25,000 nt of DNA, from the NCBI GenBank assembly GCA_018398765.1, contig JAHBMJ010001739.1, positions 1-25,000 on the forward strand, read 5' to 3'. The translations under genes and the position numbers were made by a program. Positions 1 to 25,000 of the stretch are shown piece by piece. Positions within the stretch are counted from its first letter, which is position 1. Every line of letters starts with the position of its first letter. Below the pieces are notes generated by a model. That model saw only the letters and a list, made by a program, of their open reading frames with translations. It was not told where the DNA came from and made no database searches. This stretch comes from Chromera velia. Its lineage: Eukaryota > Sar > Chromeraceae.

Positions 1-2389
1 CCCCCCCCCCTGCCCTCCCGCCCCGAGTCCCACTCTCGGAACCGCTCTCGGGGGACCATCAGCAAAGGCCTCCCAGATCCATGCAGCAACCGTTTCTCCC
101 GCCCCCTCACCTTCCCACATGCAAATCCAACGACGAGACTCCCGACACTCCCTCCCAGCCATTCCCCCCCCACCCCCAGGGGGTCCTACAGGCTCGCCTA
201 CCGAGACAGCAGCAGCTGGCAGGTCAGCCTCCTCCTCCCACCTGCCGAACGTCATCCGCGCCGCCATCCCTCACGGGTCACCGCAGCAGAGACACACTCA
301 GCAACCGATACGCCATCCGAGGCACCACAAGGGCTCCAACTGCATCCGACCGACCCCGCCTCGGAACCCCTCTGTGCCCGTACAGGGCACTGCCCCGCCA
401 GGTAGCATGGTTAGCTCGGCAGATTCAGGGAGACCCCTGAACGTTTCGGATCTGTTACCCCTCTCTTCCTCAGGAGAGGCGAGGACCCCCTTGTCCCCTG
501 CAGACCTCCACGCAGGCCCGTTGCCAATGTCGCCAGCGGGGGGTCCTGCAGGAATAGATGCGCAGGGGTTTGCTGTGGTGAGGGGTGAGAAGGAAAGAGC
601 GATGAGTGACGGAGACGCAGAACTGCACTTCCAGATGCTTCATGAAGCCGCGTGTGCCAAGAACGGACCAGAGGCTGATGAGGGAGACGCCCCGGCGGCT
701 GCACAGACTCCCGACCGAGTCTGCTCCCTTGACTACGCGCATCCTCCCAGAGAGAGGCACAGCATCTCATTCACAGGCACCCTCGATTCGGGGGGGGGCA
801 CTCACCTATCGGAGTCCCGAGGGAGGGACTGTCCGTCCCTTCTACCTTTCTTGGAGGAGATGAGAAGCGGGGGAGTGTTGACGCTGCTGCCCCCTGCCGC
901 CCGTACGGGCACTATAGAGTCCGACACGAGTGCAAAAACCAGACTGTCGGGCCCGACGGACGGGGGTACACATGCGCCTGCACGCCTCTCAGAACCCGCC
1001 TCCCCCAGCACCCACACGGCGCCTGTACGGGGCGCCTTCGACACAGGGGGGCGAGAAGGAGGCGACGGGGAGAATGAGGATGAGTACAGTTGGGACTTTC
1101 CCCTTGAAGACGTGAATGATTTTTGTCAGCATCCTTCCGACGCTCCCGCTTCTGCCTCTGCATCGGCAACAGCCGCCACGTCAGGTGACGATGCTCATCC
1201 ACAGCCTCAGCCTGGTGGGGGGGCAGCGAGGAGAGGGAAGGAGACGGGACCGGCAGGAGGACCGGGGTCCTCTCCTCAGTCAGACCCTGCGAATGCCGCG
1301 TCTCCTGTGCTCTCGATTGACCGTCCAACTCCCAAACAGCAGAGCACATCAATTCTAGGGGTTGGTCTTTTTTTGTTCTTCCAGATTTCAACTCTCTGCT
1401 TGCTCACCTGTTTCTCTTGGAATAGGGCTGTGAATTTGGCTCTTTTGGGACCTTTTTGTACAGCGTCTTCTTTCTCCTTTTTCTTCATTTCCCTTCGTAT
1501 GTGCACGCCTGCCTGGCTTTTGTCTCTGTCCTTGCCTTTCGCACTTTGTGACCGCGAGCACTGTTTCCTCGAGCATTTCCCTCCTGCAACGTTCGTTCTC
1601 TCCGTGTCTCTCTCTCTCTTTCTCTGCGTGCGAGTGCTATGAGAGAAGGAAAGTGAAAGACGAGAAAGTGGAATGCGTTCGAATCACAGTCGGTGAGTGA
1701 CCTATTCAGGAATCTGATTCTGTTATCTTCTGTTCTGCCCCCATTCGATCTCTCTGCGCTCCCTTCCTCTCACCTCGTTGCCTGCATCCATGCAGAGAAG
1801 TTCCCACGCGCTCTTTGGCGTTGACGGGCTCGGAACGGCAGCTCGACGAATAGGCCTGGGAAGGGGCCTCGTGCACTTGTCCATGGCCCAGGAGGGGGGG
1901 GAGAGGGGCGGGGGAGAGAAGGGCACAACGGGACAGACTGGGAATGTGAGCGTGAGTGCAGCGGCGGAGCGTGCACATCATCGATACTCCGGTAGTGGGT
2001 CGGCAGATTCCAGCAGCCCTCCCGGATCGTGTGCGCAGGAGGGGGGGTTGGAGGAACACTATCAGAGAATACTGCCTCTACCTGCAAGTGGTGCCAGTCC
2101 GGGAGCAGAGGGGACAGGGAGTGGAGACGGCATGAGTCCCCAAGTGCCGCCTGGCCATCGTTCCTTCTCACCGCTCCCGTCTCCAATGCAACACGCACAG
2201 CAGGGCATGATGCCCTCCCTGCCAGTGCTCGCCCCTGCGTCTCCGTCTCTGTCGTTTCATCAGGGGGCCAATGTGGAGGCAGAGACGGGGCAGAGTCCTC
2301 CCCTGCATGCGGTTGCTGTAGCAGGACTGAAAATTGAACGCGAAAGGGAGAAGGACAAGGAGGGGGAGGGGGGGGTGTTGCGTGAGTGA
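1..2389 (+). CDS. 3' end of a large low-complexity protein, function unknown (partial)
   Basis: The frame starting at base 2 is open from the window edge, so this is the 3' part of a longer gene. I see two exons, 1-1360 and 1796-2389. They are joined by a 434-base intron with donor GTTGGT and acceptor CCATGCAG, and both sides are phase 0. The visible part encodes about 650 residues and ends at TGA 2387-2389. The protein is rich in Ser, Pro, Gly and Ala and looks intrinsically disordered. The only patch that looks less random is acidic and aromatic, around bases 1075-1125 (EDEYSWDFPLEDVNDFCQ). The C-terminus is highly charged (KIEREREKDKEGEGG). I recognise no catalytic domain, signal peptide or membrane segment. 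The defining domains, if any, lie upstream. The splice sites match those of the two better-supported genes in this window, which favours a real coding tail. The first exon could still hide a further intron. Confidence 0.6.
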
Positions 2390-3420
2390 AATGGAGGGGG
2401 TACTTGACAGAAAACTGTAAAAAAGGGAGCGGGGTGGGGGAGGAGTGACGTGATGTGCTGTCGAGGGGCGACTTTCTTCCCTTGCGTGTATGAAAGGATT
2501 GAGCGTTTGGGAAGGCTGACGAAGGGGGGTTGATTGGGCGGGAGAAATTCATGCTGTTGTTCGATGTTCGGTGTCGTTTCTGGGGGGGGAGGGTCTGTTT
2601 GGGGGAAGGGAAGCTTGGCTGGTTGGTTTGCCTGGTTTCTTGTAGGTGGGTGGGGACTGGGAAGAGAAAACGAATTAATCGTGTGCTGAAAGAGGGACCT
2701 CATTGGGTGGTAGCAGAGCATTGGTTGAGTGGGAATCGGATCGTTGGGGGGGGTTGGGGGGAGAGAGAGTTTGCAATTCAGTAGGGAAGGGTCTAGGGAG
2801 GGAGGCAATAGGCGGTTCGTTTGTTCGAAGGGAAATGCAAAAAGAGAGACAGAAAGAAAGCGTTCGGGACGTCGAGCGCCTGCATGCCTAGTTGGAATCT
2901 GCCTGTATTTTTCTGTTCGTCTTTTTGTCTGCATGTCAGTCCGTCTGTCTGCCGGGGGGGTGGGGCCTGGCTGATAGTGAGTTGAGAGTTGCAGGCCGAG
3001 GGGCAGGGAGGTTTGTGCGTGCCTGCATGCATGCATGTATGCCTGGGGTCCTTCTGTGACGTGTTTGGGAGGGGGGGGGGAGGAACAACCAGAAGGGCTC
3101 ACGGGGCTTGTACCAAATTGTAGCTTGCTATGACTTGCAGTTGTAGTTTGTTTCACGGAGAGGGGGGCGACGTCGGGGCGGGCCGGTGGGGAAGGTGCAT
3201 CGACACAGCGTGCATGAAAAGCGATTTTCATAACCTGAAAGTGGCGGCGTACTTCTGGGGCTGAGGCCTGGAACGCCACTTTGTCTTCTTTGATTTTCCC
3301 AGGGTTGACCGCGTAACATACGACTGTTGGTGGTGTACATGTGTTTGCATGATTTGCAAGACTGCCTGGCTGGCTTTTTTGCTTAACGAAATGATTGAAA
3401 CGCTTCTGCCGTACCATATT
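2390..3420. other. G-rich 3' flank, no supported gene
   Basis: This stretch follows the stop at 2389 and is strongly G-rich on the + strand, with runs of seven to ten G (for example near 2747 and 3071). It probably holds the 3' UTR and terminator of the upstream gene. Its C-rich complement leaves a long open frame on the minus strand that has no domain-like composition, and I do not accept it. A TGCATGCATGCATG palindrome lies at 3024-3037. Confidence 0.5.
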
Positions 3421-4095
3421 ATATCATATACTAGATCATGTACTCGATGGATACTAGGATGGATACTAGGATGAATATTAAGTGCATGTTGATCGTTTTT
3501 GGGGTGGGAGGTAAAAAACATCATATAGTTATTAAACTTAGCAGTTATAATGCTAGAGCTCTAGACTCTGGAACTAGCTCTGAAAGATCTCTAGTGGAAG
3601 ATAAACATTTATGTTCTTTAACAGTTATTGTTAATAATATTATTAGGCAACTCATCTACTAGTTTGTCCAGTATACCATTCACTCGGCTTTTCCTTTATA
3701 TTATATGCACGCTAATATATGCATGCTATTAAATTCCTAGTGATTTTTCCTCGTAAAATTGTTATAGTAAAATTGCCGCTCTAATTAATTACTGCTAAGT
3801 AGGCTGCTAACAACTTTGAAGTAATTCTACTTAAAGAAAAACCAGATATGATTCTAGATATGATTGCATGATGTGTACCGCTGTGTTGGCGCTCCATTAT
3901 GGAGCCCAAATCTAAGATATGTAAAGAATTATAAGTTTATTTTTTTAATTATTTTCTAGGCAACAAGATTTTACTATTATTAATCGTTATAACTTATATA
4001 ATATAGTTTGTACTCGTATCATGAGTCGTATAATCTTAGAAGTGTTTGCAAGATCAATGTAGCCCTAAATAGCAAGTAGATGCAGTTTGTAAAAC
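3421..4095. other. AT-rich island, possible decayed insertion
   Basis: Base composition changes sharply near 3420 to AT-rich sequence and returns to mixed composition near 4100. A perfect 12-base tandem duplication (ATGGATACTAGG) lies at 3447-3458 and 3459-3470. Within the island, short stretches read as plausible peptide, for example QQDFTIINRYNLYNIV at about 3961-4009 and NNFEVILLKEKPDMI at about 3809-3856. No frame stays open for long. This fits a decayed AT-rich mobile or foreign insert, but I cannot name a family. Confidence 0.35.
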
Positions 4096-5182
4096 GTCGA
4101 TCGATATCGTTTTCAGGCTTTGGCGTGGGTGCAAAGAGAGTAGACAAACAAGCAGGCAGCCCCACACGGCCGCAGAAGGCTTTAAGCTCCCAACACAGTA
4201 AGCTTCTTCTGCAACAGTCGGAGACGGCTCTACGAACTTCTTGTTCCCCCAGTCTCTTGACACAGTTGAGGCACCCGGAGTCGCCAGGTGTCGCCTCACT
4301 CCGGAATAAACAGCGGTGCTCTAAAAGGACAACCACAGAGCAAGCAGAGGAAGCAAAACACCCACAACGACCTCGGAGCTTCAACCGGCTGAGGAGACGC
4401 CTGCAAGCTGGGCCCTCCACTCCACACAGATCCAGAACCATGGCAAACACGGCGGTGCCCGTGACTTCGCACGCCTGGGGGTAGACGCCAGCCTTCCAGG
4501 TTTCCCCCTTCCTTCAATGTCGACCAGACAAACCGCGCTCACGGCCGCAGCCAGTTTTTGAGAAGGCAGCGTAGTGTAGAAGAAGAAACTGGAGGAGACG
4601 GCGAAAATCTAGGGGCATGACTCGATGGGGGTTTTCCACCTGGGTCAGGACGGCAAGTCACACGTATGCACACGCCATGAAGCACTTCAGGACGGCTGTG
4701 GTGGCGTGGGCTTCCCAGTATACGAACACCAGTCGGGGAAAAGCAAAGAGAATAAAGAAAAAGAGAAAAAGAGAGAGATGGGATAGAAGAAGGCGGGCAG
4801 CTTGGCTCCTCTCGGCCACCTTCTAATCCTACAGACCAGCGTTTAGAACCGACCTTTTCTCATAGTTCAGGAGAAACCCCTTTTGAGCCGCTGGGGGTCA
4901 TTTATCGTATTTTTGCGTGTGCTTTCTCCTTTGGGGGAGGGCTGCTGAGCTTGTCTCTTACCGAACGTTGGAAGCCTCGAAGGATAGGCCACTAGTCTAG
5001 GCAGACGACGATGGCGTATGATGATGTAACACCGAGCTTCCGACTTTATAGCTCAATCTTTGAGCCACTATAGACAAACCCTCCCTTGTTTGCAGCCTTT
5101 GTCGTCTTCGAAGCATTTCGAAGCTTTCTACAGTACCCCGCGGACCTCTTACAAAACAATCACAAGGAACTAAGACTCTGAC
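4096..5182. other. Mixed-composition region, no gene assigned
   Basis: Several frames of 70-140 codons occur on both strands here (for example minus 4019-4450 and plus 4080-4484). None shows a recognised motif, and I could not chain them with convincing splice sites. The minus-strand exons proposed at 5183-5990 would continue into this stretch if they are real. Confidence 0.3.
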
Positions 5183-11392: not shown

Positions 11393-14275
11393 TCATTCGA
11401 GGAGGCCCTGAGACTGGAGGCCCTGAGACTGGAGGAGGTTGCCGAACTGGAAGTCCGCAAGGGAGGCGAGGCTGTCCGTCTGCACACGCACAGACACACA
11501 CGGGGGAAGACAGACAAACACAAAAAATGCGAAGGTATGTAACGAGCTTCAAAAACGGGCGGGCTGGTTTCCCCGGAGAACATGCCGATGCGTCTCTCTC
11601 TCTCCCTCCATCCCCGAAATAGAGGGTACAGAGTGAAACGTTGACCCAATCAAGTGAATGTACACAACATAGCAGTGGAGGCAGTGGAAAGTCCAATTTT
11701 CGATACCTCAAAAAGAACACACAGTTGGAGTGGAGGAAACCGGTAGACAAGGCAACAATGCGCGAAAGTGAAGTGAGAGACTTTTATTCTCATTTTTTGG
11801 CAGGCAGACAAGACAGACAGACTCGACCACACTAACGAACGAACCTGAGAGAACGAGAAGTCTCCACTCTCCCCTTGGGTCTCTTTCCCCTTCACGGTCT
11901 GCATCTGGCTGTTTAGCTCGGTCATCTGGCTCTGGCTGTCCCCACCCAACAAGGCATCCGAGTTACCTTGACTCTGCGTCGCTTGAGCTCGCAGCCCCCT
12001 CTTCCCCACCTCCCTCTCCCTGTCCCTTTCCCTCTCTCTGTCTCTGTCCCGTCTCCTCGATCTTTCTTTCCTCTCTCTGCCCTCCCTCCCCCCCTCCCTC
12101 TGTGCAGCAGAACTATCCTGGAAATACCTCCCAGGCGCATTCACGTACGAGTTCCCATACCCCGACGTCTCCTGACTGAACGGCAGAGACAGGGAGAGAC
12201 CTACCAGCCCCGCATCAGAGAGACTAGGGCCGTGACCAGCCCCAATCCCCCCACGGCTGCTGCTGGGGGGAGCCGCAGCCGCTGCCGCCGCACTTGCAGG
12301 CATTAGTGGGTTCACCCCTCCTCCCATTCCGCCACTGCCAGGAACAACCTGCAGCCAGACAGACAGACAGGTAGCCAGAGAGGAAAATGGAAGGAAACAC
12401 AAGAAGAGAAAGAAGAGAATGCCTCCCAGCCCTATCACACACGTGCTCTGCCACATCGAGAGACGTGGACCACTTCCTCATTCACAAGAAAAACAAATCT
12501 CGATGTTTCAGAGTCGTTTTATGAAAGAAGGTTGCCAGAAAGCGACCAGGCAGACGGAAGCAGACTGCGCCCATCTCTCCACTCCTCTCTTTAGCAGAGG
12601 AACCAACCAATGGGTGGGTGCTGCTATTCTACCGCTGCCGCTTCCCTCCTTCATCCCACCCCCCATACCTGATGGGCAGAGGGCAATCCCCCAGCGAACC
12701 CCCATTGGGAGTTTCTGTCTGCTGCGTCCTTTTTGGCATCGTCTGCAAACACACAGATGCAGGCAAAGAGAAGGTCAAAGAGTCACAGGGATTGAGAGAC
12801 CAAGGGATTGTATCGTTTCTATGTTCTTCCTTTATTTTTTCTGTCCCTTCACACTCAGATCAAGACCAAGCAGCAGACAGGGAGAAAGGAAGTGATGAAG
12901 AGTGAACTGAAAAGAACGAACTGATCAAGAAAGCAAAAAGCTGCTTCCTTCCCACCCCTCTGCTCTGTTCATCTCTTTTTGACAGAGACTGAGAGATACA
13001 CCGAGGGAAACGCAGACACCTCGAAAAAAGAGGAAACACAAAAAGATCTTGAGATCCTCAACCTCAGCCACACTTCTCTTTCTTTTTCTCGCCTGCAGGG
13101 CTTACCTGGAGCTTTCTCGCCCTGGTTTGCATGCGGGTTGCCGTGCAGTCCCGTGAGGTAGGCAGGGGGCACCCTGACGGATTTGGGGAAAGAGATCGAG
13201 ACCTCCTTCAGGCTCTGCAAAGGGCCCTCCACCACCAGACGAAACTTCTTGTAGTGGTTCAGGAGATTCACCCACACCGGGTTCTGGAGTTTGTGGTGCT
13301 GCTTTGACAAAACCTTCGCGTTGCCACAAATGATCAGACCGAAGCGCGCACGTGTGAGAGCGACATTCAGACGACGAGGGTCCTGGAGAAACCCAATGCC
13401 TGCAGAGTGTTGGGCGGAGTGCGCGGAGCCATCCATGCACGTACATAAATACTTGCATGCAGACGTGTGTGCGTGCAAGAACCAGCGAGATGTCAAACCG
13501 ACCACGTTGAATGAACACGCGGCCCTTGCAACGACGATCTAGGCAGATCTTTGCAGAGAGAGAAAAGACACGAATTGACAGACGCAGAATGAAAGAGAGA
13601 AAAGAGAGGGGACGGAGAAAAGGGACAGGAAACGGACGACCCCAGCCAGCTGATCCTCACTGCATGCCCCCCCTCCTTCCCTTTCTTCTTCTCACCCTAC
13701 CTTGATTCTGGTTCGATCGCACAGTCGTCAGGACGATAAACTCCTTCTCTCTGCCCTGGAACGCATCCACAGAGGCCACCTCCATCTCCTTCCACTCATT
13801 CGCGTTCTGCACCTGCTTTGCGAACACTTGCTGGAGGTACGCACGCTGGCCGTCATAGGGAGTCACCACTCCGATTTGGGTTCCCCTGAGGAAGAGAAGA
13901 AAGAAGGGCAGAAGGATCGTGAAGGAAAGAAAGAGTTTGTTCACTTGACGCATTGCAACCAGGGACAACAGTAAAACCGTGAACGAATACCAGTACAGCC
14001 ACATGTAGGTGTGCAGGTGCGTGTATGTATGGGTGTATGTTCTGTCTCTCTTCACCCACTTCCCTTGAGATGCGCTTCCGGCTGAGTGCCTGACTGACTG
14101 ACTGACTTGATGCCGATTTTGAGAAGGAAGCTGACGACCTTCTCGACGTTCTGGGCCTCGCTTCTGTTGAGGAAGGAAGTGCCACTCGCCGAGATCTCCT
14201 CCAGCCCTGTGGAGTGAAGGAACATCATCGGCATGTCCCCACTGCAGCAATTAGTTTTATTCATTCATTCAGGCA

Positions 14276-14314
<39 letters not shown>

Positions 14315-16096
14315 GGGATGGAATGAGAAGCCGAGAAGAAAGAAATGCCGGCGTGCATGGGAACGAAGGAAGAAGCTCTGAGAGAATAAAGGCCGAAGAA
14401 GAAGAAGAAGAACAAGAACAAGAACAAGAAGAAGAGAAGAAGAAAGCCGAGCCTCAAACCAACAGACGCAAACCTGCAGAAGCGTGAAGAGAAGAGAGCG
14501 ATAAAAACGGAGGAAAAGAAAGCATACGGAGGACCAGACTGTACAACCGAGAGAGGAATATATGTTACAAGCAGAGAAGGCCCACAAAAGAGAAAACCGA
14601 CCGAGGCCAAGGGAACCCCTCACCCCCCTCCTTCCACCTCCACGTCCTCTCTGTCAGAGTCACGCCGTTCTGAAGAGAACCGTCGTAGAAAGCCGCAGAG
14701 GGAAACTCAGACAGGCAGGGATGCATTCGGTACTGGACCTCCAGGCGCACCTGCAGAGACGAACACATCGATTGAGCGTGTGACAAGACCGCCAAAAATC
14801 TAATTAGAAGGCACGTGAAAGTGCACGTACAGAGAAGCTTCGTGAAAAAGATACAAACGCGTGCTTGCTTTTGTGGACTCGATTCAAAATTTGAATTCGT
14901 CAGACACGCTCACCGACACAATCAATCGGGCCAGCAGACGGACCCAGCGAGACAGACTGAGAGAACGTGAAGGGAGGACAGCACGGGAAAATGAAAGAAG
15001 CAGTTGAGACCTCCCGAAGTCGCCACATGAATTCACGCCCTCCGTCCCACCTTCCACACCAACTCACCGGCCGTACTCCCAGATGCACAAGGCGTTCGAA
15101 GAGACTCTGGGAGAGCCCCGCCTTGGCCGCCTTCTTGCACATGATCACAGGACCCAACTGGCAGTGGTCCCCCACCAGCACCACCTGCTTGGCCCCCATG
15201 ACGAGGGGGATGAGTGCCTCGGGTTCTGTTGCCTGTGTGGCCTCATCAACCAGGACCTGCAGACAGGCACAAGGTGCTCTCTCTCATGGAGTTGGGTGGG
15301 AAAAGGAAAAGGATGCAGACAGAACAAGAAAAAGAAGGCCAAACAACGAGGCAACGTTCTTCCTAGGGACTCTGCGCACTTGGTGAAACAAGAAACGGAA
15401 GCGGAGAAGAGGAAGCTCTTGGAAGCATATGCACAGATGATGGACGAGAGGCGCAACACTAATTCTCTTGTTCTTTGTGGGCCCTCAACTTCTTCTATTT
15501 CCCTCCACCACCCCTCGAACCCCGCCCTTGCAAGCCGGGCTCTACGTCTCTTCGGTTCCTTTCCCTCTTCGGCAGAGAATCTTCATCGTCATGCTCGATC
15601 TCCATCTACCAGGTAGGGATAAACAATCGAAAGACCACCACACAATTAACAATCCCTCCACGAACCAACCTGTCTGAATCTGAAATTCGACAGACGAGGG
15701 TCCCCCGACCCCACACAGGTCGTACAGATGACGTCAGCAGCGTGGAGAAGTTCCCTCTCGGCCATGTTGCGCAGGGTCTTCAGTCTCTTCTCGTCACTTG
15801 CGTTCAACTCCCCCATTGTCTCCTTCAACTTCAACAGCCTCTGGAGCTCCTCGTACTTCGGGGCTCTCAGCGCTCTAACCTGTATGCACCTCGATCACAT
15901 ACATGCAGAGATTTGCTATAATTTTTCGGAGGGACGTCACCTGTTTGTCGGGCAATGAGTAGCACCCTCTGCGCTCTCCTCCGCTCTTTCTTTCCAGATG
16001 TCAGGACTGTGAAAACGCAGCAGGACAGGACGAGAAAGCACTTTTTCGCCTCACCACTCCTTCTTTCGCTCACTCAATCCCGCCCCCCTTTCTTTC

Positions 16097-16133
<37 letters not shown>

Positions 16134-19100
16134 GCACGCATGCACGCACCTGTTCGTGCAGAGTCAGGTAGTCCACTGTGGAGGGAATGGTCTCTCTGCT
16201 CTTGGCAGCCAGACGCACGACCTTCAGACCGCTCATGGAGATCCTCTCTGCCACGTGGTCGACAGCCACGTTGGAGGGGGCACACACAAGCACCTGGCCC
16301 TGCAGGCAGAAAGAAGGAAATAAATAAAGAAAGGAGGAGGAAGTGCTCATTCATTTGAAGGTGGGAAGAGGTGTTCTCTTCTTTTCCCTTTCCTCCCTCT
16401 ATCGCGTAAGCCCGCAGCATTAGGGAAGGAACACCTTGAACCCCGCACTCCATCCGTCCCCAACCCCCTAAGAAGACTGAATGAGGATGGATGAGATTTT
16501 CTCGAAGCCGCAAGTTCGCCTTATTCCTCAAAGGCCATCGGGGGGGGGGGGAGGAAGGGGAATCAACACGCAGCAATGGATGGGACCGCTCATAATCGGA
16601 ATTCTCTTCCTTGTCTGATCAGTCTGTTGACATGCCGACCTGCTCCTGCCTGGCGAGGTGATACACGATCGTGGCCGAGGTCACGGTCTTTCCGGTTCCT
16701 GCAGCAATGCGTGTACAGATAGAAATACATTGCGAAGAAAAAAGAGCTCGGGGACAACCATGATGGTGCAAAGGGTAGATATGGCCAAGCGGAGAAGAGG
16801 GAGGAAATCGAAAAAAAGAACTTGGAGGAGAGGGACACATTTGATAACAACTTCCTTTTTTTGCTGCTTCTTTCTCCACGGGTAGGTGGTCCCAGGAAAA
16901 AAGAAATTGGATGTTGGCAGACAGACAGAGAGACACGGAAGGATCCACGCGTCGCCAGCCGGGTAGGCAGGCAAGCAAATGACGGGACTGACCAGGAGGC
17001 CCTTGAATGAGACAGAGAGGAGATTGGAGGGCCCGCTTCACTGCATAGGCCTGTGAGTGATTCAAAGGGGCCAGGTTGGGGGCAGAGACGTGCTTTGGGA
17101 CTTCCGCCCTGCAGAAGGAAGAAGGAAGAAAAAGGAGGGAATCAAATTATATGAGCATTCTGAGTCAAGGGGAAATTGCATCTGGGAGAAGAGGAAGCGA
17201 AACAATGCGATGCTTGCCAGAACATCTGTCGACCGTTGCACAAGAGGCAGACAGAGTCGTCCGTCTAGTCCTTTCTCCTCTCCGTGGAAGAGGAGATTCC
17301 TTCTGCCGGTACAGTGTCCCTTCATCCTACTCTTTGTAGGACGCTCAACATTCCTGTATGTTATTCACAACTGACTTGACTGCTGTGTCCTCAGGGTCCC
17401 TCCCCAGAAGCCGATGGAAGAGGTAGGCAGACACGGAGGCTTCCTCCTGAGCGAAGGCCCTCATGGCTGCCTGCATCCTGTCGAAAGTCGTGGCCTTCCA
17501 GACGAACTCCACAGTAAAGTTTGTTGTCAGGTTGTCGTCCCAGGGACCCTGCATGCATCAATCGCACCATCGTCATGCGTGCGTCAACCAATTGATCCAT
17601 CAATCCATCCTAACAGAAGGGGGGGACAATTAAACAGAAAAGAGGCGAGCGTGTATCTCCACTCGATTCATTGATTGATCGTACTGTTCCTTCCTCGACA
17701 GACACTGCATGCATGCCCGCCCGGATTTGCAGAAAGAGAGAGAGCAAAGAAAGAGGATCCCTCCTATGCAGCAAAAACGGAAAGAAAGAAAAGCACTGAT
17801 CGAAAAATGCTTCTGTCCACCAAACCTTCTGTGACACATGAGGACACGCATTGACACGACCCTCCTGACCCCTTGTAAATCTGGAAGAGAAATTTCAAGA
17901 AAATCAGAATCAAACCACCACCCTTACTAACCGTTGCGTTCTCAGGCAGTCGAGCAAGCTCCAGTGCGATCTCCTCGTTGCTGCAAATCTTCACAATCTG
18001 ACCCGTCGCCTCCCACACAGGCCTTCCTGCACCGTCAAGTCGGCAGTTTCTTTGCAGAGGAGGAATGTGGAGCTCATGTGCAACATAAAAGAAGACAGCA
18101 GAGCAGGCAAGATAAAGAGAGAGACGGATCAAAGACACCAAGAGGAAGTGAGAGCAGGAGGACAAACGAGCAGGTAGAAGAAGCGGAGAGCGGGCATGCA
18201 GAAAAGAAATGAGGAGGGAGAGACCCCACACAGCAACCTCACGTCCCCTCTCCTCCCAGCCTCACCTGGTTTCACAAGTTTCAGTCTCAGCTCATCTCCC
18301 ATAATTGCCTTCCCTTCGTTATCGTCCCTGCTGAAGAGAAAGTAAGCCACCCTCTTCTTGTTCATACCAGAATCCCACCGAACAGTCACACCCTCCTGCC
18401 TCTTCCCCTCTTTGACCATGCGGTCGTAATCAGCCTCCAACTTCACCAGCGGACCAAACGTATTCTGATAATCATACGCATCGTTGTACCGCAGGCTAAC
18501 GGGGGTAGGTTCATCGTCCACTCCAGGCTTGTCAATATCTGCAACCGACGCCTTCGGTGCCATCTTCCACAACTCCTCCAACTTCGAAATTTGACTTGCT
18601 GTCAGGCTGCGGGCACCCCTCAGATCTGCACTGTCCGGAACTTTCAACAGCCAGGGGAGCAGACCCTTGTCCTCAATCAAAGGGGACCACCCGGCCATAT
18701 CCCACCCCTGTTCCTTCACAGAATTGGAGGACAAACAAGGCTCTCTGCAGATTAGAGCGACCACGCCGTCAGGCAAAGAGATGAACCCCAACAAAAACGT
18801 GTTACGATTTCCGCACGAGTAGCACTCGAGCACGGACTCTCCAAGGAGCCCCTCTGAGTGCAAAATGATCTCCTTGTGCTTTGACCGCACCAGATGATTT
18901 ACGATGTGGGAAGCGCCTGTTGATGCACGATGGTTGCAGAACCACTTGTCACAAGCGACACACTTGGCCACGCACTGGGGGTTTGATACGTGACAGTAAC
19001 TGCAGACAAACAGCAAAGCTAGAGTGGAGACGATTGCACGAACGAGCGTACTTCTTCAAAAAGGTGGAAGCATCACAGTTCAGAAAATCAAAAAAGAGGA

Positions 19101-19633
19101 GTCATTCCAACTGTCTCGCCGTGTTTCTCCCTAACGAGGCCTGGTCTGTGTTCTCTCTTGCCACACCCCTACACCGTCACCTCACCGACTGACCAGCACA
19201 TGTGTTCCACAGGCTCCACGGTTGGTCCTGCAGCGCTGTCATCTGCTGGAAGAATGTTCAGAGACTCCAGCTGCATCTGAGTGTCCTCCACGTTCGACAT
19301 CGCGTGGAGACTCGCACCAGCGGACCCTGAAGGCATCTTTGCACTCATCCCGTTGGCATCCCCAGAGCCTCGGGAACCCGACGGTTTCGAGGCGCTCGAA
19401 GCTCCTGGTCTGACTTCCGACTTGGACTGAGCTTGCCATGATTTGGCTTCAGAAGTATCGGCTTTGGTTGGCTGATCCTGGGTAAGGCCGGAAAGGCCTC
19501 CAAGACCGCTCAGGTAATCAAAACGCCCCCCGAGCCCTCCATCATCTTGAGAGAACAGACCGTGATCAAGCTGAGAAGGAGTGTTCTGGGTCACACCTTG
19601 AAGAGTTTGCTGAGTGTAATCAAAGTCATCCAT
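11393..19633 (-). CDS. UPF1: UPF1-type RNA helicase (nonsense-mediated mRNA decay), 16 exons
   Basis: This is the ATP-dependent 5'-3' helicase that binds stalled terminating ribosomes and triggers decay of mRNAs with premature stops. Exons: 19633-19194, 18999-18266, 18026-17932, 17548-17376, 17108-16993, 16698-16640, 16299-16150, 15879-15670, 15256-15068, 14750-14602, 14241-14107, 13885-13701, 13399-13106, 12742-12669, 12348-11845 and 11479-11393. They total 3594 nt (1197 residues; human UPF1 is about 1120). The Cys/His-rich UPF2-binding domain starts near residue 143 (EHMCCYCH). Walker A is GPPGTGKT at 517-524, split by intron 5. Motif II is DEAT (663-666), then GDHCQLGP (688-695), QYRMHP (728-733) and NVALTRAR (890-897). 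The tails carry SQ/TQ sites, including two SQG repeats in the last exon, like those phosphorylated by SMG1. An RD/RE-rich stretch precedes the C-terminal cluster. The start is the first Met of an SQ/TQ-bearing N-terminus. Exons 14 and 16 rest on phase and splice sites rather than on homology. Confidence 0.93.
14091..14106 (-). repeat. Tandem GTCA repeat forming stacked 5' splice sites
   Basis: On the minus strand UPF1 intron 11 begins with GTCA repeated four times. Each unit restates a GTCAG donor at 4-nt spacing (14106, 14102, 14098, 14094). Homology to other UPF1 proteins selects the first site (IGIK joined to GTQIGVVTP). Confidence 0.85.
14284..14310 (+). repeat. (GA)n microsatellite in UPF1 intron 10
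   Basis: An uninterrupted GA dinucleotide run of about 13 units; on the transcribed minus strand it reads (TC)n and lies shortly downstream of the exon 11 acceptor region. A second purine run of GAA/CAAGAA units follows at about 14397-14445. Confidence 0.85.
16099..16148 (-). repeat. (GT)n plus (GTGC)n at the UPF1 intron 7 donor
   Basis: On the minus strand intron 7 opens with GTGCGTGCATGCGTGCGTGC and continues into about 15 GT units. The donor itself (GTGCGT at 16149) is the first unit of this repeat. Confidence 0.85.
17550..17716. repeat. TGCATGCA palindromes in UPF1 intron 3
   Basis: TGCATGCA lies at 17550-17557 and TGCATGCATGC at 17706-17716. The first overlaps the intron 3 acceptor, which reads TGCATGCAG on the minus strand. 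The same palindrome recurs at 3024, 6351, 6878, 7798, 7824, 22152, 22993 and 23013. Confidence 0.85.
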
Positions 19634-21223
19634 TTCGGTATTTGGTCTCTACTTTTGGTTTGCTTCCTGCTGGATTGCTTGCAACCAAACTTGCACTTGA
19701 TAGACCACCAGCAGAAGGGGCAAGAAGTCAAACGAGACTGCACCTGTTAGAAGACTGCGAAGAGCCGACAAAGAACAAAAGAAAAACGGAAGAAACAAAT
19801 GATGTAGCGGGAGACGAAGATCCGTTCACAACCGCTCAGTGACTTTACCGGCTTTCTTTTTTTGCGTTCTTCCCGGACCAAGCTGCTTTCTTGACCACGG
19901 CGCGCCAATTCTGACGAACTCTAACAGGTCCCTAGCTTGGAGCACGCACCTTGCCAATATGACATCTCCTGTCAAAAAAACTCAGACACAGTCCTAGCTG
20001 AACACTGTTACTTGCTGTTTTCGCCGCCTCTGCATGACAATCTCTGACGCACGCCGAATGTGGCCCCGCAAAAGTTGCGAGCGCGGCCGAGGAAAGCGAA
20101 AAGTGCATGGACCACCAATCCGTGCAAAGGTCAGGCATGGCCATGTGCAGCTTGGCAGCTGTGTGAAGAAGGCTTTGTATAGTTTGTTTCACAGAATCAG
20201 CTCGCATACTACACCATTTCCAGCACCTCGTCCGGCTGTTCCTTGGCGCCTGTTTGCTGAGTATTAATACATGCGCAAAGTGCAACTGGCCTGTGAAAGT
20301 CGTCTTCTGTAGCCCTGATCTGGCCCCTGAGAGTTTCTTAAGTGTCCTGCAGGAGGGCCAGAGGGGCTCCTGAGCTTTCTTTTACGAAGCGGCTCCAATC
20401 CAGGGAAGACCCGGGGTCTCATTAGAAGGCCGAGCAATGAGAGAAGTCAAGCGGAGTGGGAACGCCACGGGAGTTTGTGCCCACGTACTCCCAAAGTCCT
20501 ACACTCCCTGCATAAGTCCTGTGGGGGGACTGAAAGCTCTGGATGAAATCCCGGACTTGGTCCGTTCCCTTTGTCTCAGATCTATCATCTGATTTCCTAT
20601 GTCGGGCCGTGTGTCAGTCCTGCAGTCCGTTTGATCCTCTGCTTGAATGTACTGTGATGTGACTTCCCAGTTCAGAGGTCAGGCAGCTCAGTCTGCCTGC
20701 ATTGAATTCCTTTGCTCGTGCTTGCTGCCGTTCTGCCGTAGTAGTCTCTTTCTCCACAGTCCCAACGATGTTGGGTTCTGTGTGGGAAAGTGCCCCATAA
20801 GTTCTCTGGTCGCTGGAGACTAATCATTCCAGCAGGACATCTGCCTCTGTTTCTCTTTTCACTTTCCGTCTCCATCTGAACGCTTCATTTTGGGCCTTTC
20901 AACAGCCTCACTTCCTTCCCTCTTGCATGAGTGTGCCACCTTGCCCCCGTCTTCCACCTTTGTCTCCTCCTTAAGGCATTTGCTTCCAATTTGTGATGAC
21001 TTCCAGCCTCAACCTTTCCCTTCACTCGACTTTTCTTCCCGCATGCCCTTTCGCTTCCCGTCCTTCATCCCCTCCCTTGACCTTTCCTTCATCTCTCTCT
21101 CTCTCTCTGCTGCTTCAACGTCCCTTGCTGCCCATCACGTCCTGGTGTCGCCTTTACTCAAATTCACGTTCATCCCTGTCTCCTCTCTCCCTCCTCTCCC
21201 TCTTGCATGCAGATCATTCCACG
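19634..21223. promoter_or_regulatory. Divergent intergenic region between UPF1 and the fusion gene
   Basis: The two best-supported genes start head to head across this 1.6-kb stretch, so both promoters and 5' UTRs should lie here. I see no clear TATA box or repeated motif that fixes a start site. The right part, from about 20860 to 21210, is strongly pyrimidine-rich on the + strand and ends in CTTGCATGCAG. It therefore looks like a 5' UTR intron or leader of the fusion gene. Frames of 60-120 codons (plus 20034-20267, minus 19932-20285) show no recognised motif. Confidence 0.45.
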
Positions 21224-21937
21224 ATGCGCCTCTGCGGTGAGTCCTCCATCGCCTCTCCTGCAGACTTACAGCAAAAAGAAAGGGCTGTGAGCTGGTTCTT
21301 CCCTTGTCTTTTCCTTTTCTGCCTCCATTGTCGTGTCTGGTTCTTCATGACGTCCTTCGATTCGAATTCTGTGCGTCGAATGTCATTCTTTGCTGTGTGT
21401 CTGAATGACCAAGACAGGTGTGGCAGAAACTGCTTGTCGCAAATTGTGATGACTGTTTGCCGTTCACTGATCTTCATTTTCTCTCTTTGCAGCCATCTGC
21501 AATCTCGGGAGGACTCATCCACGGAACCAAAATCAAGCATCTGTACGTATGTCAGGCCGCCTTTTGCTCTTCGTTTGCCCTCTCGCCCTTTCCTCCCTCT
21601 GATCATATGACCACTCTCGGATACCTAGATCAACTGGCGCGTGGACAGATGGATGGATGGATGGATGGGTGGTGGACCGAAGGAAGAATCCTTCTTCGCG
21701 CCCACAATCTAATCTTTTACGGCCGTCTTTGCGCAGGCGTTCTTTCCACATAGATAGGTGCTCTTCCAACTTGCATATATATGTGCGTAGTGTGCATGAT
21801 TGTTCAAATCGTTCTGGTGCATTCTGATTGCTGTTATACGTGCGTGCAGGAAGTCGATCATGGAGAACGGGTTGAAGGCCAGCAAGATGCACATCTCTCT
21901 CATAGACCGTCTCCAGGAGGATGGCTCCATTCCTGGT

Positions 21938-21969
<32 letters not shown>

Positions 21970-24739
21970 TCATGAAGGGAAAGAAACCGTATAGTCTGTC
22001 AGAAAGGAAAATTCTCTGCCTTTCTGTCGGGACGTCTCTCTGCGCGTCTGTATGCATCGACATGTCACTTCCAACCTGTCCTTTGTGCATCTGCATGATC
22101 GCATGGAGGGAGGGAGGAAGAGAGGGAGGGAGGGAAGGCCGCTTGCTTGCTTGCATGCATGAAGGGATCTGGGTTGGACATGCCAGTTAAAAGGGAAGGA
22201 GGGAGGGAGCCTTCTTCTTTCCACCAATGCAGTTGGGGGTTTAACCGCGTGTCCAGATTGAGGGATAAGGCGATCCCTGTACATGTAAGAACGGTCTTCG
22301 TGTGTGTTGTGTGTATGAATGTATGTGTGTATTTGTTGTGTATGTGTATGTACTTGTGTATGTGTATGTATATGTTGTATATGTGTATGTTTGCATCAAC
22401 GTGTCTGTGTGCAGGTCTGTCAGAGCCTCCTGAGGTTCTCATCTACATCAACGAGATCAAGGCGGCAAAGGAGGGCATCGACTTCCGCTTCGACCACGAG
22501 AAGAACACTTGGTACACGAGGGGGGTGGAGGGGACGTTGCCAGCCAAGTTCATTCAGAAGATTCTCGACAACAGACCGGAAACTAGGGGTAGGATCATCT
22601 TCCAGTCTCTGGAGGATCCTGAATTGCGGGCGCAGGCACTCCCTCCCAACGCAATTCAGAAGGCCATCCATGGGTCTTATTGGGAAAATTTCTGGTCTAT
22701 CGCGGCGATCGGACTGAAGCCTGGACACAACCCGAAGGACGAGACCAGGCGTCTGACTGCGCAGACTTTGCCGGAGAAATTGATCCACGCCTGCGCGGTG
22801 CATGAGAGGGGGGAGGGGGAGGAGGGGGATAGGGACCCGAGAGCGATCCCCGGTCTCTCTCGGCCTGCAGACTTCAAAGTGGTCATCGACCTGCAGAAGG
22901 CGATCGAGCACGGACTAAAAATTTACGGGTCAGGGGGGTCATGAGAGAGGTGCGTTGTCACAGAGAGAAATAACAGGGAGGGGAGAGACTCGGCATGCAT
23001 GCAGTCTTTCAAGCATGCATGTTCGGAAAGAAGAGAGAGGAGAGGAGAGGAGAGGAGGACACGCGAATGAAAGATGGAACTTTTGCTGACTTCTCCATTT
23101 CTTCCCCTACAATCTTTCCTGTCTCTCGGCCAATTTCTCTATGCTCTCTTGAGTTGTACTGCGTGTACGTGTCTTTGACTTGTTCCCCCCCTGTGCGTGT
23201 GTGTCTGTGTTTGTTTTCAGGTCTGCGACCGGAGACGCCGTCTTCTTCGACGGTCCCCTCCCTGTCGAGTGTCTAAAACTTGAAGCCCTGTACCCGAAGA
23301 GTCTTCCCAGAGAGTTGAGGGCAGAGGTCAGGGAGGAACTGGGGGGGCCGGGGGAATCTTCTTTGTGCTTCTGTTTTCAATTCCTGGACTGTTCTTATTT
23401 TTGTACTCGTGTGTGTGTTTTTGTCGTCTTTCTCTGTGCACTTGCGTCCCCGTATACATGTTTTCTTTCACGTTTCCGCATGCACTCCCTTGAATTCCGC
23501 ATGCAGGTGCTGCCTGACCAGATTCCTGTTGTGGACCTCTCTCTCCCAGAGAAGACGGTGCTGGAACAGCTCAGACACGCGTGCGAGGTCGTGGGATTCA
23601 TGCAGGTGGGTGGGTGCGTGGGTGGGTCTGTCGTTCGTTCTGCCTGCGGGGTGTCTCAGCGTGAGCCTTTGTATTTGTAGTGTGCCAGTGTGCGCATTGA
23701 TGCATGTCTTGGAGGCAAAAAACCGTACATCGGCTGCAGATGTGATCGGACAGGCAGGCATACACGCGCATGGACATGTACAATCAGGCACTCATATGCA
23801 TAATCAAATGACGCATTGGAGGCAGTCTTCTCAAACGGAAGAATCAAGAAGAATATGTATGAGTGGATTGATTGGCCAAAAGGAAACGGGTAGGGGAAGG
23901 AAGGAAGGAAGGAAAGGAGTCAAGTCCTCCTCGACCAGCCATTTGTGTGTCGCCTTTCCTGATTCTCCTTTGTTTTTCCTAGCTACCTCCCTTCTGGGTT
24001 CTACAAAGACCCTCCCTCTATGTGCACCCCTCCCCGTGCGTCGCGGTGTGTAGTTCGTATGTCTGCTCATTATTTCGTGGGTGTGACGGGCAAGAAGACT
24101 GCGAGGAAGTTGGACCGATGCTCAACGAAGGCGTGTGAGGTACCTCTCCTTCTTCTTCCCTTGTCTCTTCAGGTTGTCGGTCACTCAGTTCCTCACACGG
24201 TGTGCACCCGTCTCCTCGACACTGCTCGTCGTTTCTTCGCTTTGTCGAAGGAAGTAAAGGAGCGTTACCGCATGGACAAGGGGAGGGAGGTGAGGGGGTA
24301 CTTTGGAAAGGGCGCGGAGAACGTCGACGGACTTTTGGAAGATGAAAAGAAAGGAAAGGGGGGGAACTTGAAGAAGAATGGAAAAGGAAAACAGGATCAC
24401 AAGGAGGGTTTTGACATGAGAGGATCCCCTGACTCCCAACCGCCTCCCACTTCAGAATGCGGTCGGCTTTTCGGGGCCACTCGGTCTGTTGAAGAGACGG
24501 ACTGTGAGGGGTTCCAGAACGCAGTTGAGACTTACCAACGGCACGTATCGTCCCTTGCACGAAATCTCCTTGCCCTGTTTGCAAAGTTATTGGGCAAGGA
24601 GACGGGTTTCTTCCAAGAGAGAACGACCGAGATGCTCTCAACCCACAGGATTTTGCACTACTGGCCTCTCACGGATTTCGAGAATGAGGTCTCCATAGGA
24701 GAACATACGGACTACGGCTTGCTGACGATTCTGCTGCAG
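21224..24739 (+). CDS. Fusion: two KptA/Tpt1-like RNA phosphotransferase domains plus 2OG-Fe(II) dioxygenase (5' part)
   Basis: Exons: 21224-21286, 21493-21542, 21850-21935, 22415-22928, 23221-23326, 23507-23605 and 24173-24739. Phases agree at every join, giving 495 codons, and the gene continues past the window. Residues 31-125 and 152-262 each resemble the C-terminal half of KptA/Tpt1, the NAD-dependent enzymes that remove the 2'-phosphate left at tRNA splice junctions. Copy 1 has HGT then IMENGLKASKMHISL and VLIYINEIKAAKEGIDF; copy 2 has HGSYWENFWSIAAIGL and FKVVIDLQKAIEHGLKIY. Neither copy keeps the usual HxHL strand intact, so activity is doubtful. Residues 274-495 match 2OG dioxygenases of the isopenicillin-N-synthase type: IPVVDLS, GFMQ joined to VVGHSVP, KEGFDMRG, and the iron-binding H484-x-D486 in GEHTDYGLLTILLQ. 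The distal His and the Arg that binds 2-oxoglutarate would lie downstream. The start is the first Met after a good acceptor; an in-frame Met at 20993 would add 77 Ser/Leu/Pro-rich residues. The KptA winged-helix N-terminus was not found. Confidence 0.7.
21646..21668 (+). repeat. (ATGG)n microsatellite in fusion-gene intron 2
   Basis: GGAT/ATGG units repeat about five times inside the intron that separates exons 2 and 3. Confidence 0.75.
21936..21965 (+). repeat. (GTCT)n at the donor of fusion-gene intron 3
   Basis: Seven GTCT units begin exactly at the inferred donor (GTCTGT) after exon 3. Every unit could act as a GTNNG donor; only the first preserves the frame into SEPPEVLIYIN. Confidence 0.85.
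22103..22161 (+). repeat. (GGGA)n, (GCTT)n and TGCATGCATG run in fusion-gene intron 3
   Basis: A GGGA-type purine repeat at about 22105-22136 is followed by GCTT units and by TGCATGCATG at 22152-22161. A further TGTATG-rich tract spans about 22310-22395, just before the exon 4 acceptor. Confidence 0.75.
22993..23058 (+). repeat. Paired GCATGCATG palindromes and (GAGAG)n tract in fusion-gene intron 4
   Basis: GCATGCATGCA at 22993-23003 and GCATGCATG at 23013-23021 are followed by a GAGGA-type pentanucleotide repeat at about 23033-23058. All lie in the intron between exons 4 and 5. Confidence 0.75.
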
Positions 24740-25000
24740 GTGAGGAAGTTAGAAGTGTGCATGCGTGTTGTTTTTCTTTCCGTGCGAAAAGTCAGTCGTA
24801 TAAAACCGTGCGAGCAAACACGTGAATGATTTTCTGCTGTAATAAAAAAGCTTTCTGCTTTGAGCAACTGTATTGAGCCTCGTGTGAAAAAGGGGGGATT
24901 CACGTTAAGACAGACATTTGCTGCTAGACCTCACTCAGATTCTGTCGTTCTCTGTTGTCCGAAGGAAGCCAGAGTAGACTCAACTTTCTTTTTCATCAAG
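24740..25000 (+). other. Start of fusion-gene intron 7, runs to window edge
   Basis: The donor GTGAGG follows the glutamine that ends LTILLQ. I see no acceptor leading into the expected rest of the dioxygenase fold (beta strands with the second iron His and the 2-oxoglutarate Arg) before base 25000. Those exons should lie to the right. Confidence 0.6.

Follow-up and report, generated by a model that had tools for sequence, protein, structure and literature searches.

The DNA analysed here, called the window throughout, is a whole contig of 25,000 bases, and toward its right-hand end lies a plus-strand gene in which sequence related to the RNA-repair enzyme KptA/Tpt1 is followed by the first part of a 2OG-Fe(II) oxygenase (Table 1). 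When its six exons, A through F (21493-24739), are joined in phase they give 474 codons with zero stops, and all five introns between them have GT...AG borders. An earlier note on this DNA had claimed a single frame with no stop between the two halves, and the open 474 codons bear that out. The same note counted six in-phase joins; five of these lie inside 21493-24739, while the sixth requires an upstream exon, for which a 24-nt candidate fits the phase but is unproven. Upstream of 21493 neither a start codon nor a first exon was located. Simple repeats (TG-rich, TCTG) occur in introns of the gene at 22300-22400 and 21936-21962 of the window, and the exon B donor is the start of a GTCT repeat. 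Rfam gave no match within the window.

The neighbouring gene on the minus strand was scanned in four frames, three of which carry Pfam matches to UPF1_Zn_bind (E 1.9e-60), UPF1_1B_dom, AAA_11 and AAA_12. The remaining frame (19169-19648) is without a Pfam match and is taken to be the first of the UPF1 gene, beginning near 19,640.

Table 1. Features of the window and of the two other KptA loci in the genome; local positions are counted within the interval given.
Feature	Location	Strand	Remarks
Window	whole 25,000 bases of contig C1736		assembly of 177.8 Mb in 4040 contigs
UPF1 helicase gene	13657-19648	-	neighbour, divergent from the fusion gene; outside the finding
Candidate upstream 24-nt exon	21213-21236	+	phase 0 to next exon; AG/GTGAGT borders; unproven
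Exon A	21493-21542	+	starts KptA-like NAD lobe 1; HGT at 21520-21528
Exon B	21850-21935	+	middle of NAD lobe 1; Lys at Arg121 position
Exon C	22415-22928	+	NAD lobe 1 completed (near 22590), then the bulk of lobe 2 (HGS); Ser at Arg139 position in both
Exon D	23221-23326	+	completes lobe 2; also a short linker
Intron between halves	23327-23506	+	180 nt, in-frame open
Exon E	23507-23605	+	start of 2OG oxygenase (DIOX_N)
Exon F	24173-24739	+	DIOX_N and first half of 2OG core; HxD 24704-24712
C1789 locus	C1789:20000-24500		local 1181-2149, 2508-3215, 3580-4020, 4188-4466
C1459 locus	C1459:76500-82500	minus	local 501-3140; NAD-lobe end, E 2.1e-7

The join between the halves

The two halves meet across intron 23327-23506, which is open in the frame of both neighbouring exons. 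Openness of this kind has a measurable background: among 180-nt windows taken from the gene's own introns, this one included, 220 of 1012 were stop-free in a given frame, and the count in upstream DNA was 244 of 1570. Combined with a one-in-three phase match, these rates give a chance of about 5-7% for the in-frame join alone, and the join by itself is only moderately improbable by chance. It is deduced from the genomic sequence of one contig of one species.

Of the alternatives considered, the one that survives best holds that two neighbouring genes or transcripts are present: the oxygenase has a promoter of its own and starts from an ATG inside the intron, and the KptA part is made separately. 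There are indeed two in-frame ATGs, at 23480 and 23501; counted back from the leading I of the motif IPVVDL, they are 14 and 7 codons away. The former has a parallel in a 2OG frame on another contig (C642), where a Met, the putative start, precedes the leading I of IIDF by 14 codons. If intron 3 were retained, moreover, the KptA part would run into a stop whose last base is 22944. That stop would, however, cut lobe 2 short, since the end of this lobe is encoded by exon D. Once exon D is included, the open intron and its unique acceptor mean that neither splicing nor retention stops the KptA part before the oxygenase. AG occurs just three times in the intron, twice beside the donor (last bases 23331 and 23335) and once as the acceptor at 23506; the intron offers no alternative usable acceptor, which strengthens the join, and contains no AATAAA. 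We regard two separate genes as rather unlikely, and the earlier observation of a KptA-oxygenase fusion, though only partly confirmed, largely holds.

Two KptA-like NAD lobes

The PTS_2-RNA/KptA model of Pfam (PF01885) matches the 474-residue product at E 4.1e-12 in two stretches, the best of which (residues 8-78) corresponds to model positions 103-173 of 177. The earlier note had named both N-terminal segments as KptA/Tpt1, and the profile search upholds the first of them, which alone (E 5e-9, 36.9 bits) clears the cut-off of 26; the second, at E 0.0078 and 16.7 bits, stays under it. The PDB sequences nearest to the NAD lobe are those of TRPT1 (7yw2, E 4.3e-5; 7yw3, E 5.9e-5) and CthTpt1 (6e3a, E 0.064). 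Two NCBIfam equivalog models for RNA 2'-phosphotransferase, which span the RNA and NAD lobes together, scored 18.4 and 16.5 bits where 239 and 231 are required.

Comparison with shuffled sequences separates the two lobes in the same way. With shuffles that HMMER did not report counted as lower (those scored numbered 1614 and 1220 of 2000, and 3039 of 5000), an 11-sequence KptA profile gave lobe 1 a score of 26.9 bits, which none of 2000 shuffles reached, and lobe 2 a score of 0.7 bits, which 14 of 2000 reached. A profile of the C-terminal lobe gave lobe 2 a full score of 8.9 bits (0 of 5000 shuffles) and a best-domain score of 4.4 (5 of 5000), but that profile contains lobe 1, so these scores are in part a test of internal duplication. 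In pairwise alignment, 6 of 3000 shuffles scored as high as lobe 1 against lobe 2. The corresponding counts out of 2000 for lobe 1 were 0 with a Tpt1 encoded elsewhere in the same genome (contig C1789), 15 with Bosea KptA and 0 with E. coli KptA; for lobe 2 they were 2, 125 and 627, respectively. Folded alone, exon C had a mean pLDDT of 36, too low for the model to be of use. As far as sequence can tell, the KptA identity of segment 1 is secure and that of segment 2 weak, and both appear to represent the NAD lobe only, present as a duplication whose second copy has strongly diverged.

The C1789 gene appears to be a complete Tpt1, with an RNA lobe and an NAD lobe that each exceed the Pfam cut-off in separate exons and frames; the RNA-lobe match crosses one TGA into a presumed intron. 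Its NAD-lobe frame continues without a stop into sequence resembling the start of a DEDD exonuclease, where there is no Pfam call, and the frames that follow match RNase_T at E 3.8e-10 and then at 0.031, the latter under the cut-off. A Tpt1-exonuclease fusion at this locus is possible, and the genome may thus fuse KptA elsewhere too. A further NAD-lobe end above the PF01885 cut-off, on contig C1459, keeps the Arg139 equivalent and opens an 880-codon, largely low-complexity frame, and matches on C70 and C1473 fall under the cut-off. The exon-by-exon PF01885 search of the genome missed the window gene itself and is accordingly of limited sensitivity.

The residues that matter can be read against CthTpt1, in which, according to PMC6333775, the RNA lobe comprises residues 1-85 and the NAD lobe residues 86-182. 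The same paper has the RNA phosphates held by three RNA-lobe residues (Arg18, His19 and Arg68) together with Arg121 of the NAD lobe, and NAD contacted by His101 and Thr103 (of the HGT motif), Arg121, Arg139 and Arg140. For the R137A protein of RslTpt1 (alanine at the Arg139 equivalent), activity was partial at 1 mM NAD+ and absent at 0.1 mM, and yeast carrying it was barely viable (PMC6333775).

Our comparison covered 11 full references and one fragment, a convenience set in which ten members were picked from the records that tblastn returned with the C1789 Tpt1, 91 from phages and 50 from plasmids. His101, invariant in the 11 references, is kept in both lobes; Thr103, likewise T in 11 of 11, is T in lobe 1 and S in lobe 2, giving HGT and HGS. 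Arg121 (R in 11 of 11) is K in lobe 1, and falls in a part of lobe 2 that is unreliably aligned, this lobe having insertions that make the alignment from HGS to PGLS unreliable. At the Arg139 equivalent, all 12 comparison rows that have a residue show R, and both lobes carry Ser. The Arg140 position is variable among the references themselves. The valine of the NGV motif (12 of 12) is T in lobe 1, where NGV has become KNT, and V in lobe 2, where G-V is kept. Finally, the beta-2 His found in 10 of 11 references is Ser in lobe 1. The arginine cage around the NAD phosphates is eroded in both lobes. NAD binding in some form is possible, with HGT of lobe 1 and HGS and the G-V of NGV in lobe 2 intact.

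The retained motifs, and the fact that lobe 1 is otherwise alignable with TRPT1 over its length, might be expected of an active NAD-using ADP-ribosyltransferase that has acquired a new specificity and is coupled to the oxygenase. The replacements in lobe 1 at Arg121, the Arg139 equivalent, the beta-2 His and NGV, and in lobe 2 at Thr103 and Arg139 along with its insertions, argue against such an enzyme, which we consider quite unlikely.

The oxygenase half and the contig edge

DIOX_N (PF14226) matches residues 258-375 at E 2.4e-22 (80.2 bits, cut-off 27.3), and the closest PDB sequences are 9ovh, a 2OG ethylene/succinate-forming enzyme (E 8.4e-20), and 6jyv (E 4.3e-14). The HTD of GEHTDYGLLT, at residues 463-465, aligns with 9ovh and is the HxD of the iron triad. 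The contig stops short of the positions expected for the 2OG-binding Arg and the second His of the iron site, and half of the oxygenase fold would lie beyond it. The 2OG-Fe(II) dioxygenase call made earlier is therefore secure for the N-terminal part, by its DIOX_N and HxD; the remaining catalytic residues would fall past the contig edge. This half is probably the catalytic part of the predicted protein.

Position 25000 cuts the gene: the exon F donor, CAG/GTGAGG, opens an intron that runs to the contig edge, and the protein presumably continues beyond it. The C-terminal continuation was not identified among the PF03171 matches in the genome, of which one of 16 was read. That one, on the minus strand of contig C2327, begins at the contig edge with a poly-C run, which a 2OG C-terminal piece follows; a comparison of contig ends with the window showed no shared stretch as long as 10 bases. 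We judge it unlikely to be the missing half. It fits contig C2595 better, because the orphan DIOX_N/2OG N-terminal part found there also ends in poly-C; the two look like halves of one 2OG gene, and are possibly one locus split by assembly. A separate DIOX_N match of 36.1 bits lies at C1308:12550-12834, within a 1835-codon open frame.

The position of the oxygenase half, on a single contig and touching its edge, invites the thought that the gene is an assembly chimera or a decaying pseudogene, the more so as the last intron, if left unspliced, would lead to a stop at 24829 and an AATAAA at 24841, leaving the oxygenase without its C-terminal half. Yet there are no N bases between 21401 and 25000, the 474 codons are open with consistent splice sites, and the exon F donor sits exactly where the family motif goes on. 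An artefact or a relic of this sort is, in our estimation, very unlikely.

Interpretation and known relatives

It had been proposed that a single protein might link RNA junction recognition to an oxidation step, an idea that does not follow from the analysis: no RNA lobe was recognised, Arg121 is replaced by Lys in lobe 1, and Arg139 by Ser in both lobes. A tblastn search with the RNA lobe of the C1789 protein yielded no convincing hit upstream of the gene. An RNA-lobe profile built from 10 plasmid and phage KptA proteins had its best match in the window at 15650-15955 on the plus strand (E 0.1), inside the stretch that the UPF1 gene occupies on the opposite strand. That the gene encodes a true Tpt1 with its RNA lobe in unseen upstream exons is barely credible: with no start codon or first exon located, a very divergent RNA lobe in small exons might be hidden there, but the plus-strand profile matches nearer the gene (19963-19998, E 1.1; 19925-20044, E 3.1) are at chance level, the same profile recovers the C1789 RNA lobe at E 5e-11, and the NAD-lobe residues are changed too. 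The fusion protein is unlikely to act as a 2'-phosphotransferase, since no RNA lobe was found, the residues of the NAD-phosphate cage are changed, and the genome has another, apparently complete Tpt1. The interpretation given in the earlier note is in this way partly supported, its family names and single frame standing, with lobe 2 doing so weakly.

What we favour instead, as a somewhat probable reading of the sequence, is an oxygenase-family protein whose KptA NAD lobe, present twice and catalytically degraded, would serve for binding or regulation. An intron-rich eukaryote would here have placed two Tpt1/KptA NAD lobes, of the ADP-ribosyltransferase fold, in frame before a DIOX_N/2OG-Fe(II) oxygenase. 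The lobes would no longer remove 2'-phosphates from RNA, and may serve as a nucleotide-, ADP-ribose- or protein-binding module, or as a regulatory one, that places or gates the oxygenase. A more specific version is that the paired lobes sense NAD+ or an ADP-ribose derivative, such as the ADP-ribose cyclic phosphate made by the genome's own Tpt1, and so gate the 2OG oxygenase. We rate this as a long shot, very improbable indeed; were it true, it would tie the state of RNA repair or of NAD to an oxidation.

If the join is real, it presents the NAD lobe of Tpt1 used without the RNA lobe, in tandem, and beside an oxygenase. The cofactor lobe of an RNA-repair enzyme would then have been turned into a module, and the gene would afford a clear test of what a lobe of this kind binds after losing its catalytic arginines.

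The pairing of KptA with an oxygenase may be new. A scan of viral contigs with the 252-residue KptA part produced no relative, nor did scans of collections of genome contigs and viral contigs with the C1789 Tpt1; the phage and plasmid records that tblastn found with the latter protein indicate that these pattern scans are insensitive. Bosea KptA yielded 10 loci. The earlier note had suggested looking for the same pair in related genomes, and in a small test with phmmer on frames of at least 60 codons, none of 11 KptA loci (these 10 and the Bosea locus) carried a 2OG relative, the C642 control being found. The literature search, judged mainly from titles and the opening lines of abstracts, turned up no report of a KptA-2OG-Fe protein; most subscription journals and all eukaryotic protein databases lay outside its scope, so a prior annotation is possible. 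The terms "2OG" and "dioxygenase" do not occur in PMC9503650, nor does "dioxygenase" in PMC7955679.

Three known systems offer points of comparison. With Tpt1/KptA proteins (PF01885; CthTpt1 6e3a, TRPT1 7yw2) the fusion shares NAD-lobe sequence, the HGT of lobe 1 and the order of motifs, and differs from them in having no recognised RNA lobe, in its changed phosphate-caging arginines, in the duplication of the lobe and in the attached oxygenase. With the DIOX_N/2OG-Fe(II) oxygenases (PF14226, PF03171; 9ovh, 6jyv) it shares DIOX_N, the motif HTDYGLLT and an alignment of residues 258-474 to 9ovh, whereas the KptA-like N-terminal extension is its own and its C-terminal half lies beyond the contig. 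The remaining system comes from Bodo saltans virus, in which, according to PMC9503650, KptA is fused to Nudix, a domain that its authors suggest processes ADP-ribose derivatives. There too a KptA-family domain is fused to a second enzyme domain, but the partner in the virus is Nudix, and in the window gene it is a 2OG oxygenase.
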